Source of the DNA: a virus
Reading direction: 5' to 3' (one strand)
DNA length: 29,826 nucleotides
Virus record (IMG/VR): IMGVR_UViG_3300032294_002010
Span: 1-29,826 of that record
In this document: positions 4,108 through 29,826 of the stretch, piece by piece
Layout: the number at the start of each line of letters is the position of its first letter
Position numbering within the stretch: position 1 is the first letter of the stretch
Notes under the pieces: generated by a model
Database searches by the model: none
What the model was told of the DNA's origin: nothing
Seen by the model: only the letters and a program-made list of their open reading frames with translations
Position numbers and translations under genes: made by a program

Positions 4108-4115
4108 CTATTTAT
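4108..4115 (+). promoter_or_regulatory. TATTTAT motif, candidate phage promoter element (copy 3)
   Basis: CTATTTAT followed by ATAAAA lies in the 105-base gap before the tail tube gene, 40 nt upstream of its ATG. The rest of this gap is almost pure A/T with no hairpin or ORF that I can see. Confidence 0.42.
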
Positions 4116-25917: not shown

Positions 25918-28314
25918 ATGTCAGACAAAAAAAACTTCGGATACTTAGGAAATACTTTTCAAATTCAATTAATAAACAATATTATTACATACAAAGATTT
26001 CGCTAATTCTATCCTTGAAGTAATTGAACCTAACTATTTTGATAATCAATATTTTAAGATTATTTGTCAAATGATTAAAGAATATTACTCAAAATATGAG
26101 CATACTCCGACATTTGATACCTTAGAACAATTAACCAAGTCAGAAATAACATCTGCAATGGCTCAAAAGAGCATTTTAGATACGTTGATGCAAATTAAAA
26201 ATGTGTCTGACGAAGGGGCTATGTTTGTTCAAGAAAAAGCATTAAAATTTTGTAAACAGCAAGAGCTCCAAAAAGTAATGACTAAAGCACAATCAATCAT
26301 CGACAAAGGTGATTTTGAAAGTTATGATAAGTTGGAAGAAATGGTAAGGGGGGCACTACAAGTTGGTGAAGTTGATAAAGGAACAAGTGATGTATTTTTT
26401 AACCTTGATGAGGTTTTGGACGACGATTACAGACACCCAATTCCATTAGGTATACCTGGTATTGATAACCTTTTAAAAGGAGGATTAGCCAAAGGAGAAA
26501 TTGGTGTATTTTTAGCACCAACAGGTGTTGGTAAAGCACTACCTATCAGTGAGCCAGTACTTTGCCCAAATGGTTGGTTAAAAATTGGTCAGTTAAATGT
26601 TGGGGATTATGTAATAGGTTCAGATGGAAAAAAACAAATAGTTACTGGCGTATACCCACAAGGAGTAAGACCAATTTATAAAGTTGAATTTACAGATGAT
26701 ACTTTTGTGTATTGTGACGAAGAACATCTATGGAGTGTGAATACACTAAATATGAGAACTAAAAAAATAAGAAAAAAAGGTAAATCAATCTATTCCCCTG
26801 ACAATGGTTATATTACGGTTAAAACAATGGATATGATAAAAGATATCAAAAAAAGAAATCGTTATAATTATAGATTACCTAATGTTAGTCCGATACAATT
26901 TGAAAAAACACCAATTTCTATAGATCCTTATTTGTTAGGGTTGTTACTGGGTGATGGGAGTATATGTGAAAGTGGTATTAGAATTTCTACAGAAGACGAC
27001 CAAATTTTTAAAAATATTGAACATTTGAACGAACATACTTCATTTAGAACCTATAACTCTAAAGAGAATAAAATAACAAAACAGATTTTTTTAAAGAAAG
27101 AATTAATGTTAAGATTAAAAGAATACGGTTTGTTAAATAAAAAATCTAACAATAAGTTTATACCAAAAGACTTTTTGTATAATTCTTTAGAGAATCGAGT
27201 ATCCTTATTACAAGGTTTATTAGACACTGATGGTTTTGTTAGTAATAATTCAATAACACAATTTTATACTGTTTCTGAACAACTTTCAAAGGATGTTAAA
27301 GAATTGGTATTATCATTAGGAGGGACAATAAGAAAAAGTATAAAAAAACCAACTTATTTGTATAATAATGAACATAAAGAAGGTCAAAAATGTTATGTAT
27401 TAACAATTTCTTTCTGTAATGATATTATACCATTCAGATTGGATAGAAAAATAAATAGATATAAATCTAGAACTAAATATACAAATCAAAAATTTGTTAA
27501 AAGTATTGAGTATAGCCACAATGAAGAAGCGGTTTGTATTAAAGTATCTAATAAAGATGAATTATTTGTAACTAGAGATTATGTATTAACTCACAACACA
27601 ACCTTTACAACCAAAATTGCAAATCACGCATTTAACTTAGGGTATAACGTACTTCAAATATTTTTTGAAGACAACCCAAAAATTATTCAAAGAAAACACT
27701 TTACACTTTGGACTGGTATTCATCCTGATGATTTATCTGAAAATAAAGATGATGTAATGGCTAAAGTTAAACACATTCAGTCAACAAGAAAAAACAAGTT
27801 GATAATGAAAAAATTGGCTTCTGACACCGTATCTATGAATCAGATTAAAAATCAAGTAAGAAAGATGATTGCTGAAGGAACTAAAATCGATATGATTATT
27901 TTAGATTATATTGATTGTGTTGTTCCTGACAAAAGTTTAGGTGATGAATGGAAAAGCGAAGGATCGGTCATGAGAGGATTTGAAGCAATGTGTCACGAAT
28001 TGGACATTGCTGGGTGGACGGCCACACAAGGTAATAGGTGCGTCAAAACTGATACTTTAGTTGATATTGAAGGAAAAGGATTAATACAAATTAAAGATGT
28101 CGTCAAAGGAGATAAAATCCTAACACATTTAGGTTATAGAGATATTACATACATTTTTCCAATTCAAAAACAACCGGTTTATAAAATAAAAACCAAAAGT
28201 GGTAAAGAAATAAATGTTTCAGTAAAACATAAGTTTCCGGTAAAGGATAAAGGGTTCCTTTCAATACAAAGCGGTCTTAATGTTGGTGATAAACTTTTTA
28301 TTAAAAAAACTTGA
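25918..28314 (+). CDS. 41: Replicative helicase (T4 gp41/DnaB-like), N-terminal fragment containing a class 3-like intein and ending in a split-intein N-half
   Basis: A 798-aa precursor. Residues 1-~150 are the helical N-terminal domain of DnaB/gp41 helicases. The RecA-like core begins ~175 with PLGIPGIDNLLKGGLAKGEI and APTGVGK. An intein occupies 207-560, after the Walker A Lys. The core resumes at TTFTTKIANHAF (561), with LQIFFEDNPK, Walker B MIILDYIDCV (659-668, D663) and the motif ending ATQGNR (702-707). At C708 a second, split intein N-half starts (to T798), then a stop. The true N-extein is 353 aa (206 + 147). The missing helicase C-terminus is encoded from 29693 onward behind a C-intein. 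The mature enzyme would unwind DNA at the fork with primase; neither fragment alone can be active because the P-loop and the arginine-finger region must be restored by splicing. Confidence 0.9.
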   Translation: MSDKKNFGYLGNTFQIQLINNIITYKDFANSILEVIEPNYFDNQYFKIICQMIKEYYSKYEHTPTFDTLEQLTKSEITSAMAQKSILDTLMQIKNVSDEGAMFVQEKALKFCKQQELQKVMTKAQSIIDKGDFESYDKLEEMVRGALQVGEVDKGTSDVFFNLDEVLDDDYRHPIPLGIPGIDNLLKGGLAKGEIGVFLAPTGVGKALPISEPVLCPNGWLKIGQLNVGDYVIGSDGKKQIVTGVYPQGVRPIYKVEFTDDTFVYCDEEHLWSVNTLNMRTKKIRKKGKSIYSPDNGYITVKTMDMIKDIKKRNRYNYRLPNVSPIQFEKTPISIDPYLLGLLLGDGSICESGIRISTEDDQIFKNIEHLNEHTSFRTYNSKENKITKQIFLKKELMLRLKEYGLLNKKSNNKFIPKDFLYNSLENRVSLLQGLLDTDGFVSNNSITQFYTVSEQLSKDVKELVLSLGGTIRKSIKKPTYLYNNEHKEGQKCYVLTISFCNDIIPFRLDRKINRYKSRTKYTNQKFVKSIEYSHNEEAVCIKVSNKDELFVTRDYVLTHNTTFTTKIANHAFNLGYNVLQIFFEDNPKIIQRKHFTLWTGIHPDDLSENKDDVMAKVKHIQSTRKNKLIMKKLASDTVSMNQIKNQVRKMIAEGTKIDMIILDYIDCVVPDKSLGDEWKSEGSVMRGFEAMCHELDIAGWTATQGNRCVKTDTLVDIEGKGLIQIKDVVKGDKILTHLGYRDITYIFPIQKQPVYKIKTKSGKEINVSVKHKFPVKDKGFLSIQSGLNVGDKLFIKKT
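26536..27597 (+). mobile_element. Contiguous intein with LAGLIDADG endonuclease in helicase Walker A (class 3-like)
   Basis: The insertion spans A207 to N560 of the ORF (354 aa) between GVGK and TT. It begins ALPISEPVLCPNGW, so residue 1 is Ala rather than Cys or Ser. Block B reads FVYCDEEHLW, with Trp two residues after the His (W66 of the intein). Block F reads EEAVCIKVSN (C334) and the end is YVLTHN (T352, H353, N354), with Thr as +1 residue. Ala1 plus this Trp/Cys/Thr triplet is the signature of class 3 inteins, which form a branched intermediate on the block F Cys. The endonuclease has both LAGLIDADG-type helices: LLGLLLGDGSI (ORF 339-349) and LLQGLLDTDGF (430-440), each with its acidic residue intact, so homing activity is plausible. 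Confidence 0.87.
28039..28311 (+). mobile_element. Split intein, N-terminal half (91 aa)
   Basis: It starts at C708 after extein residues QGNR: CVKTDTLVDIEGKGLIQIKD, then VVKGDKILTHLGYRDITYIF, PIQKQPVYKIKTKSGKEIN and VSVKHKFPVKDKGFLSIQSG, ending LNVGDKLFIKKT before the stop. Blocks A and B are complete, including the block B His (HKFP). It closely resembles, from memory, the gp41-8 split intein N-half (KQPVF...LKSGKKI...HKFPTKDG...SGLKVGD). No blocks F or G are present; they lie at 29564. Confidence 0.9.
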
Positions 28315-28343
28315 GTCGCTGACTAACTTTTCAATTTAACACG

Positions 28344-28351
28344 ATATTTAT
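28344..28351 (+). promoter_or_regulatory. TATTTAT motif, candidate phage promoter element (copy 10)
   Basis: ATATTTAT followed by TATATA begins 13 nt before the ATG at 28357, in the 42-base gap between the split-intein stop and the endonuclease. It could let the endonuclease and the C-intein ORF be transcribed separately from the N-part. Confidence 0.4.
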
Positions 28352-28356
28352 TATAT

Positions 28357-29559
28357 ATGGGAATGTTAACAATTGAAAAGTTTTTGAACTATAAAAAAAT
28401 TAAAGATATAACACATTTGATAACTGAAAAACAATTTTTTGAAATTGAAAAGTTGTTTATATTTTATAACACGGAAACAATAAAAAATAGATTAACAAAT
28501 ATTAGACATTTTATTTTGAATAAGGTTGATGAAAAATGGTTAGGAAGGTTATATATAATAAAAAACAGATTAAAAAACGATGTTTTAAGTGAATATTCTT
28601 GTAAAGTTAGATACGGAAATAATTGGGAAATCAAACAAAATGAAATAAAAGAAAAGGTTAAAATGGATAAAGAAAAATTTATTAGTCTTTATGGTTTAAC
28701 TGAAGGTATTAAAAGATGGAAAGAAAGGAACGAAAAAACTATATCATATGGATTAGATCCTGCAGTTAAAAGATATGGTGAAGTTGAAGGTAAGAAAAGA
28801 TGGGAGTTAACTTTGAAAAAAAAGATTAACACTATGAGTGAACGAAAAAAAATTAAACCATATAGAAATGGTAGAACTTTGTCCGAACATCAAGAAAGAT
28901 ATGGACTTTATGAAGGTTATAATATATGGAAAAAAAAGAATGACAAAGTAAGTTATCGATTTAGTAAACAATATTATATTGATACATACGGTGATATGGG
29001 TAAAGAAATGTGGGAAAAATATTGTTTAAATATGGTAAAAACAACAAAAAATTCTTTTATTGAAAGATATGGAAAAGAAGAGGGAATCCGTAGGTATGAT
29101 TTATTTATTAATCAAATAAAATTTAAAAGTTCTAAAGAATATTATATATCAAAATGGGGTCAAATAGAAGGTTTAGTTAAATATCAAGAATTAATAAATA
29201 AAAAAATTAATAACTTTATTGAAAAATATTCAAAAATATCCCAAAAACTTTTTTGGTCTTTATATGAAAAAATAGATGATTGTGGCAAATGTTATTTTTA
29301 TGAATTAAATAATGAATATACTTTTTATGTTTGGAAAGATGATTTAAAGATTATCAATGTTGATTTTAAAATGGGAAATAAAATAATTGAATTTGATGGT
29401 GATTATTGGCATTCAAATGAACAACAAAAAATAATTGACAAAAAAAGAGATCAATATTTATGTAGTAAGGGGTATAAAGTTTTAAGAGTAAAAGAATCAG
29501 ATTTTAGAAAAAATAGTGGAGAAGTTATTGAAAAATGTTTAAATTTTATAAAAAGTTAA
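28357..29559 (+). CDS. Free-standing Vsr-like homing endonuclease inserted between split-intein halves
   Basis: A 400-aa protein. Residues 1-100 are helical and basic. Residues 108-276 hold six copies of a motif close to RYGxxEGxxRW, probably DNA-contacting modules. The C-terminal ~75 residues form a Vsr-like nuclease: INVDFKMGNKIIEFDGDYWH (D336, E345, D347, D349, H352), then IIDKKRDQYLCSKGYKVLRV (D361, R364, D365) and KESDF before a final helix. This agrees with the endonuclease family described together with fractured split-intein genes in marine metagenomes (Dassa and colleagues, 2009). It would cut helicase alleles lacking the insertion and so carry itself and the split site. Its stop lies 4 bases before the C-intein start. 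Confidence 0.85.
   Translation: MGMLTIEKFLNYKKIKDITHLITEKQFFEIEKLFIFYNTETIKNRLTNIRHFILNKVDEKWLGRLYIIKNRLKNDVLSEYSCKVRYGNNWEIKQNEIKEKVKMDKEKFISLYGLTEGIKRWKERNEKTISYGLDPAVKRYGEVEGKKRWELTLKKKINTMSERKKIKPYRNGRTLSEHQERYGLYEGYNIWKKKNDKVSYRFSKQYYIDTYGDMGKEMWEKYCLNMVKTTKNSFIERYGKEEGIRRYDLFINQIKFKSSKEYYISKWGQIEGLVKYQELINKKINNFIEKYSKISQKLFWSLYEKIDDCGKCYFYELNNEYTFYVWKDDLKIINVDFKMGNKIIEFDGDYWHSNEQQKIIDKKRDQYLCSKGYKVLRVKESDFRKNSGEVIEKCLNFIKS
28678..29184 (+). repeat. Six RYGxxEGxxRW coding repeats in the endonuclease
   Basis: Copies centre on SLYGLTEGIKRW (residues 110-121), KRYGEVEGKKRW (138-149), ERYGLYEGYNIW (180-191), DTYGDMGKEMWE (209-220, shifted), ERYGKEEGIRRY (236-247) and SKWGQIEGLVKY (265-276). 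Spacing is about 27-42 residues. The pattern is a Tyr/Trp-Gly turn followed by a short helix. Confidence 0.8.
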
Positions 29560-29563
29560 AAAA

Positions 29564-29692
29564 ATGGATGAATTAAAATTTTTAGAAATTGATGAAATAG
29601 AATCAATTGAGTTAGTTGGTGAGGAGGACACCATAGATATTACAGTGGATGATACTCATATGTTTTTTGCCAATGAAATTTACACACATAAT
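29564..29692 (+). mobile_element. Split intein, C-terminal half (43 aa)
   Basis: Contains blocks F and G only: IDITVDDTHMFFANEIYTHN followed by Ser +1. Block F lacks the class 3 Cys, and its partner N-half begins with Cys1, so this is a standard class 1 split intein, unlike the intein at 26536. Confidence 0.9.
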
Positions 29693-29826
29693 TCGTCAAT
29701 TGCGTCTGAAGTTGTTACAACAGATCAAATGGGTGGATCAATTAAAAAGGCTCAAGTGGGTCACGTAATTATCACAGTTGCTAAGTCATTACAACAAAAA
29801 GAAATGAATTTGGCAACAATTGCAAT
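29564..29826 (+). CDS. 41: Split-intein C-half plus C-terminal part of replicative helicase (3' truncated by window)
   Basis: An ORF with its own ATG, open to the window end (87 codons plus 2 bases). Residues 1-43 are the C-intein: a short linker (MDELKFLEIDEIESIELV), block F (EEDTIDITVDDTHMFFANEI) and block G YTHN, with Asn43 as the cleaved residue. Residue 44 (S, base 29693) is the +1 nucleophile and begins helicase sequence SSIASEVVTTDQMGGSIKKA, then QVGHVIITVAKSLQQKEMN, matching the C-terminal RecA-core segment that follows the QxNR motif in DnaB-family helicases. Trans-splicing to the 25918 product gives ...TATQGNR-SSIASEV.... The C-intein strongly resembles the gp41-8 C-half. The remaining helicase C-terminus lies beyond the window. 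Confidence 0.9.
   Translation, partial: MDELKFLEIDEIESIELVGEEDTIDITVDDTHMFFANEIYTHNSSIASEVVTTDQMGGSIKKAQVGHVIITVAKSLQQKEMNLATIA

Follow-up and report, generated by a model that had tools for sequence, protein, structure and literature searches.

The DNA analysed in this study is IMG/VR record IMGVR_UViG_3300032294_002010, which derives from an uncultured phage, and its whole stretch of 29,826 nucleotides (29.8 kb) is referred to here as the window. An open reading frame (ORF) at 25918–28314 encodes a DnaB-like replicative helicase (phrog_19, E 1e-44), the product of an essential replication gene in T4-like phages. This helicase is interrupted by a contiguous intein and by a split intein, and the two halves of the split intein lie on either side of a free-standing endonuclease gene. 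The structure of the locus, its relatives in other viral contigs and the short gap ahead of the endonuclease gene were investigated. The features of the locus are given below; a slash marks a splice junction.

25918–26535, + strand: helicase extein 1, 206 aa, up to Walker A (...APTGVGK); phrog_19; unbroken in the uninterrupted (empty) allele of locus L176
26536–27597, + strand: contiguous intein, 354 aa, with LAGLIDADG motifs, in Walker A (GVGK/A...LTHN/TT); LAGLIDADG_3, 1.1e-8
27598–28038, + strand: helicase extein 2, 147 aa, ending ...WTATQGNR before the split intein
28012–28029, + strand: presumed homing-target stretch, −27 to −10 from the insertion point, copied in inverse at 28311–28328
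28039–28311, + strand: N-intein, 91 aa, with Cys1 (nucleotide 28039) and block-B His64; stop codon TGA at 28312–28314
28311–28328, − strand: inverted imperfect target copy, putative operator; 11/18 to its own target, p 0.0006 by shuffling
28345–28351, + strand: TATTTAT, putative promoter element by motif match, 12 bases before the endonuclease start
28357–29559, + strand: free-standing homing endonuclease gene, 400 aa; helical repeat at about residues 1–287, nuclease at about 290–400; best PDB match 3r3p (I-Bth0305I)
29564–29692, + strand: C-intein, 43 aa, DEIESIELVGEEDTIDITVDDTHMFFANEIYTHN, ending ...YTHN; ORF start ATG at 29564
29693–29826, + strand: helicase C-extein (SSIASEVV...), complete in relatives

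The fractured helicase and its two inteins

The locus consists of three ORFs rather than one frame: the N-half and the nuclease share a frame with a stop between them, and the C-half lies in a different frame. The same gene order was found in about 40 other loci, and the arrangement is therefore neither a chance product nor an assembly error. An earlier note on this DNA had described a fractured helicase, in which an N-part with N-intein and stop is followed by a C-intein and C-part with their own start; its coordinates were right, and no continuous frame crosses 28312, given the TGA at 28312–28314 and the other frame of the C-half. In scans of viral contigs, relatives numbered 130 for the endonuclease, 293 for the N-intein and 593 for the joined helicase exteins, and at most 80 loci of each scan were analysed. 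The split intein or its fused form is carried at the same helicase site by 69 distinct viral loci, always after Q-x-x-R, with Ser following in 68 loci and Cys in 1. The N-intein was found in no named phage of INPHARED and in no bacterial or archaeal genome of the collection scanned.

The joined halves match the gp41-1 intein (6qaz) with E 3.6e-19 and are split at the canonical position. Cys1, the block-B His, the terminal His-Asn and the +1 Ser place the window intein in class 1, and these residues are kept across the distinct loci (Cys1 in 68/69, block-B His in 69/69, terminal HN in 69/69). L083, a natural contiguous relative 76% identical to the joined halves of the window, was modelled as a stand-in for them. 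Its model (predicted local distance difference test score, pLDDT, 93.5) superposes on gp41-1 (6qaz) at 0.9 Å over 128 columns, with 42% identity and a template modelling (TM) score of 0.94, so that the HINT fold expected in the earlier note is predicted for the window intein as well. As judged from the sequence, the only consistent route to a whole helicase would be protein trans-splicing of the halves, in agreement with the earlier proposal. The label 'gp41-8-like' is only partly right. The site Q-x-N-R/S and the intein endings presumably fit those of gp41-8, and the best solved relative of the window intein is gp41-1; the PDB entry of the latter is one 128-residue chain of a split intein, whereas the window halves are separate. 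L275, which resembles T4-type gp41 with SQLNR/SAVE, is only 48% identical to the window intein.

The fractured-gene arrangement itself is already known. Dassa et al. reportedly described in 2009 fractured genes with the split inteins gp41-1, gp41-8, NrdJ-1 and IMPDH-1. The window shares with them the order of gene N-part with N-intein, free-standing endonuclease, and C-intein with C-part, the phage replicative helicase as host gene, and, through the contiguous relative L083, a HINT fold within 0.9 Å of gp41-1. It differs from them in that its helicase adds a class 3 intein and an inverted target copy before the endonuclease, and empty, nuclease-less and contiguous alleles of one site are documented here.

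The intein at 26536–27597, which was not mentioned in the earlier note, matches class 3 inteins (6rix/6bs8, E about 1e-9) and the WCT variant of gp41-1 (6riz, 2.6e-10). Class 3 inteins are defined by a position 1 without nucleophile and by Trp in block B, Cys in block F and Thr in block G (WCT) (PMC6195587, PMC7664689). Read against this definition, the residues Ala1 (no nucleophile), ...EEHLW, block-F Cys (VCIKV) and LTHN/T assign the intein to class 3. A further 12 distinct occupied loci carry the same P-loop intein. A DnaB with two inteins is already known from Mycobacterium smegmatis, with a class 3 intein in the P-loop and a class 1 intein at motif H4 (PMC6195587). The window resembles this DnaB in having a class 3 intein in the P-loop and a class 1 intein at a second site. 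In M. smegmatis, however, the class 1 intein is unsplit and includes an endonuclease domain of its own, which the class 3 intein lacks; in the window, LAGLIDADG motifs occur in the class 3 intein, and it is the class 1 intein that is split.

The endonuclease was claimed in the earlier note to be intact, free-standing and Vsr-like, and its catalytic end does match I-Bth0305I, both by sequence (E 3.7e-4) and by structure. The model comprises a long helical array followed by the nuclease, with the I-Bth0305I catalytic domain as best PDB match (probability 1.00, TM to target 0.66), and D336, K338, E345, H352 and D361 are invariant in 36 homologues; by fold and residues, as modelled and aligned, the enzyme is assigned to the EDxHD (I-Bth0305I) type. 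The likeness to I-Bth0305I (EDxHD/Vsr-like, 3r3p) lies in the catalytic domain fold and the D/K...E..H...D residues. In contrast, the N-terminal 290 residues of the window enzyme form a helical repeat array, and its gene is free-standing between intein halves, whereas that of I-Bth0305I lies in a group I intron. No convincing Pfam or PDB match was obtained for these 290 residues. A repeated Y/W-G-x(2,4)-G-x(2)-W/Y-like motif runs through the array at residues 36–288 (28463–29220 of the window), and the array is perhaps a modular DNA-binding region.

Relatives of the endonuclease also occur at other host genes. In L039–L047 they lie between the split-intein halves of a ribonucleotide-reductase-like gene (C-part NTSSLVLGTSSGIHAWH), and the L047 locus is near an uninterrupted helicase. 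Several of L067–L081 carry them after very short N-inteins (31–41 aa) at a GK/C site; these hosts are probably terminase genes with atypically split inteins.

Empty alleles, nuclease loss and re-fusion

The earlier note had suggested a search for uninterrupted alleles at this codon in sister phages, and at least 80 were found; identity across the junction reaches 96% over 191 aa. The closest helicase to that of the window, L176, is one of them: both inteins are absent, and the exteins show 94% protein and 92% DNA identity over 1191 bases. The number of synonymous substitutions per synonymous site (dS) between exteins is 0.34 from the window to L176 and 1.8 to L010, the nearest occupied locus. 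Because the nearest allele at 92% DNA identity has neither intein, the sequences indicate that the window probably gained both of them recently. The +1 residue in empty alleles is Asn (31), Ser (47), Gln (2) or Ala (1), as compared with Ser (68) or Cys (1) in occupied ones; L176 has Asn, unlike a site left after precise intein loss. In the helicase tree, the occupied loci window, L010, L105, L011 and L012 fall within clades made up of empty alleles, and the well-supported branches require five or more changes; the empty alleles had been chosen for their similarity to the window, so that those near it are over-represented. Synonymous divergence (pS) between the window and L010 is 0.68 in the exteins, 0.54 in the N-intein and 0.56 in the endonuclease, differences to which saturation and base composition may contribute. 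Mantel correlations among extein, intein and nuclease distances are 0.81–0.88 overall, which argues for vertical descent at depth, with horizontal movement visible at close range only.

Of the 69 occupied loci, 39 have an endonuclease ORF that is 300 aa or longer, and in 14 the insert is broken, shortened or unrecognised; 10 have no nuclease, their halves being 2–66 bases apart, and in 6 both halves are fused in one ORF (129–132 intein residues). L285, placed among the 14, has an open frame though an early ATG is absent, and its nuclease is probably intact. Two pairs of loci catch loss of the endonuclease by deletion in the act, as read from aligned sequences: L016 differs from L044 by a deletion of 937 bases and L153 from L159 by one of 1270 bases, and the remaining DNA is more than 99% identical. 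The ratio of nonsynonymous to synonymous rates (dN/dS) in nuclease-less split pairs is about 0.05–0.14 where computable, and this purifying selection implies that the halves remain in use.

The fused loci come from several samples and have three different junctions. Contiguous L083/L085/L101/L103 and L087 occupy tips among split loci with nuclease in the intein tree, and L105 is loosely placed nearby. The fused inteins retain an apparent C-half leader (NTNIILDE or DKNNIFDE, compared with NKNDFILDE in L002), and the N-intein of L083 is at dS 0.07 from split L002 and at 0.19 from contiguous L087. Three split-to-contiguous changes were counted on supported branches. On these sequences, fusion to a contiguous mini-intein has occurred in at least one lineage and probably in two or three. 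The helicase is thus not 'permanently split', as the earlier note had put it: the nearest tree relatives of the contiguous mini-inteins are mostly split loci with nuclease, which indicates that the split is long-lived and outlasts the nuclease without being permanent. The series of stages, from empty alleles through about 70 occupied loci that are split with nuclease, split with broken nuclease, nuclease-less or fused, is new here; no account of decay and re-fusion in fractured genes was found in the open-licence literature searched.

Two further observations concern individual loci. The contiguous intein of L103 (3590–3976) has Tyr in place of Cys1 and is otherwise nearly equal to that of L101; it is possibly a splicing-dead allele or a sequence error. 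L119 and L148 are nearly identical in their C-side and gap and have different N-inteins, a mosaic that suggests recombination inside the intein.

Inverted target copy ahead of the endonuclease gene

The gap between the N-half stop and the endonuclease start measures 11–70 bases across loci (42 in the window) and contains two recurring elements. One, directly following the stop, is an inverted, imperfect copy of the helicase sequence beside the insertion point, which in the window matches the empty target of L176 at 12/18 positions. When matches were weighted by GC content, the best of 401 positions lay beside the insertion point (−23 to −29), in the inverted orientation only, and the peak recurred in two clades analysed apart (−27, z 5.4; −23, z 3.6). 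The inverted-copy score lies 14 standard deviations above that of shuffled gaps, and the copy is individually significant at 0.05 in 22/33 loci. The weighting was chosen after the first results had been seen; three checks followed, namely the codon-position test, the separate analysis of two clades and the control with nuclease-less loci. No inverted copy was present in the seven nuclease-less gaps tested. Plain local alignment of gap against N-extein was not significant, and unweighted 18-mer identity between gap and helicase peaked at an AT-rich stretch, not at the target; the copy emerged only with the GC weighting, the shuffles and the codon-position controls.

The copy matches its target at 0.68, 0.65 and 0.37 of first, second and third codon positions, respectively, and the difference between positions 1+2 and position 3 is 0.30, compared with at most 0.09 in 129 control segments. 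It also tracks the residue at −5, since most loci with Thr have ACN in the copy, most with Val/Ile have RTA and one with Phe has TTT; TCN occurs in about half of the readable copies of Ser loci. Relatedness leaves only one or two independent contrasts for this tracking. That a non-coding stretch should mirror a gene some 300 bases away at its first and second codon positions is best accounted for by a binding site for a wobble-tolerant protein that recognises the DNA of this gene, which points to the endonuclease. Wobble tolerance is known from I-AniI (PMC3943268). In the terminase-like and ribonucleotide-reductase-like loci of the endonuclease family, no general signal of a copy was obtained in 8 loci; terminase-like L072 is a strong single case, with an 18/20 inverted copy across the intein junction.

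The other element, TATTTAT, occurs in 33/39 endonuclease gaps, usually 21–23 bases ahead of the start codon; several tail genes of the window are likewise preceded by it. In the window it begins 17 bases downstream of the inverted copy. Identified by motif match, it may be a promoter element of the endonuclease gene.

A known system offers a parallel. In phage T4, a site 15/20 identical to the homing site of I-TevI overlaps a late promoter, and binding there represses the I-TevI gene; this operator has no cleavage site that the enzyme can use, and cutting there is about 100-fold less efficient (Edgell 2004, reviewed in PMC2988022). The likeness is a homing-site copy near a promoter-like element ahead of an endonuclease gene; the window differs in that its nuclease family is unrelated, its host element is a split intein and not a group I intron, its copy is inverted, and binding and repression are predictions. 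From sequence and by this analogy, the inverted copy is best read as an I-TevI-like operator for auto-repression by an endonuclease of an unrelated family, and the level of the endonuclease is probably limited by such self-binding. No account of a target copy in fractured genes was found in the open-licence literature searched.

Proposed mechanism and alternatives

We read the locus as a split intein that moves as a mobile element among phage replicative helicase genes, and consider it very likely that this reading, including the operator and the decay series, best explains the whole. The two helicase parts would be made separately and joined by class 1 protein trans-splicing at QGNR/S, and the class 3 intein of the P-loop would also have to splice in cis to give an active helicase. 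The endonuclease would cleave any helicase allele that lacks the intein in a co-infecting phage, close to the insertion codon; the cut allele would then be repaired by copying in the entire cassette, with its +1 Ser codon. Held less firmly are the steps in which the endonuclease may bind the inverted copy without productive cutting and repress itself as I-TevI does, and in which its gene may be driven by its own promoter-like element. Over time the endonuclease would be lost by deletion, the split halves usually staying in use and sometimes fusing. A broader proposal joins two generalisations: EDxHD endonucleases of split-intein loci auto-repress via an inverted pseudo-homing site that co-evolves with the target, convergently with I-TevI, and the split is one stage of a cycle running from empty to split with nuclease, to split, to re-fused mini-intein. 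We give this joint proposal an even chance of being right.

Several points weigh against the mobile-element reading. The C-extein in the window is only 134 bases long and is cut by the contig end. Co-conversion should leave mismatches clustered near the insertion site, and the clustering seen there is no more than suggestive (2.7% of positions are as clustered). The copy is undetectable in 11/33 loci; the agreement of gaps with their own rather than permuted targets (1/5000) is confounded by relatedness, with one to two phylogenetically independent contrasts; and the promoter role of TATTTAT is a putative one, read from a motif match. Moreover, a single origin for all of the contiguous inteins survives the approximately unbiased (AU) test (p 0.29). 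This last result would suit a history in which the contiguous mini-intein was ancestral and split loci were derived from it several times, in line with the general view that split inteins arise from contiguous ones (PMC11766414). We regard that history as rather improbable: L083/L085/L101 and L087 sit at tips inside clades of split loci with nuclease, the N-intein of L083 is nearer to that of a split locus than to that of contiguous L087, and the fused forms keep what appears to be the leader of a separate C-half.

The inverted copy could instead act as RNA, with the end of the N-extein and the gap pairing in the mRNA so that a long stem around the N-intein controls translation or processing of the endonuclease. 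An inverted copy would share a transcript with its target, and G-to-A mismatches compatible with G.U pairs are common; but the poor match at third codon positions is expected for a wobble-tolerant DNA-binding protein and not for a selected helix, the G-to-A excess fits an A-rich copy in which T-to-A and C-to-A are also frequent, and no Rfam family was matched. An RNA role is therefore unlikely. Two other readings concern the gene as a whole. An interrupted frame with a 1.2-kb foreign gene inside might suggest that the helicase gene is dead and its halves are relics, which is scarcely credible when the splicing residues are conserved in 69 loci, nuclease-less halves are under purifying selection and the exteins of this essential gene are intact. 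Barely conceivable is the removal of the endonuclease region from the RNA as an intron, with the intein made in one piece; a homing endonuclease between gene parts is typical of group I introns, but the window has no Rfam intron match, the listed fractured loci have a stop codon for the N-half and a start codon for the C-half, and nuclease-less loci have separate stop and start across gaps of only 2–66 bases.

Read as a mobile split-intein element, the locus extends what was earlier known from few metagenomic loci, since one site now offers about 70 occupied and at least 80 empty alleles. Whether splitting came before or after nuclease loss, the re-fusion of split inteins and the reason for a two-piece replicative helicase become testable. 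The inverted wobble-tolerant copy would serve as a read-out of endonuclease recognition and predicts auto-regulation. For protein engineering, the natural halves provide candidate split inteins, among them versions that are nuclease-free or fused.

The remainder of the window carries a T4-like gene set, comprising tail sheath, tail tube, baseplate hub, gp32-like single-stranded DNA-binding protein, UvsX-like recombinase, endonuclease VII and 5'-3' exonuclease; only 34–36% of the sheath protein is shared with the nearest named phages. A second homing endonuclease gene (507 aa, phrog_3339) lies at 1373–2896, between the tail sheath and tail tube genes. The sequence TATTTATA occurs at 4109, 4713, 5632 and 7583, upstream of tail-region genes, and may be a late promoter element of the phage group.

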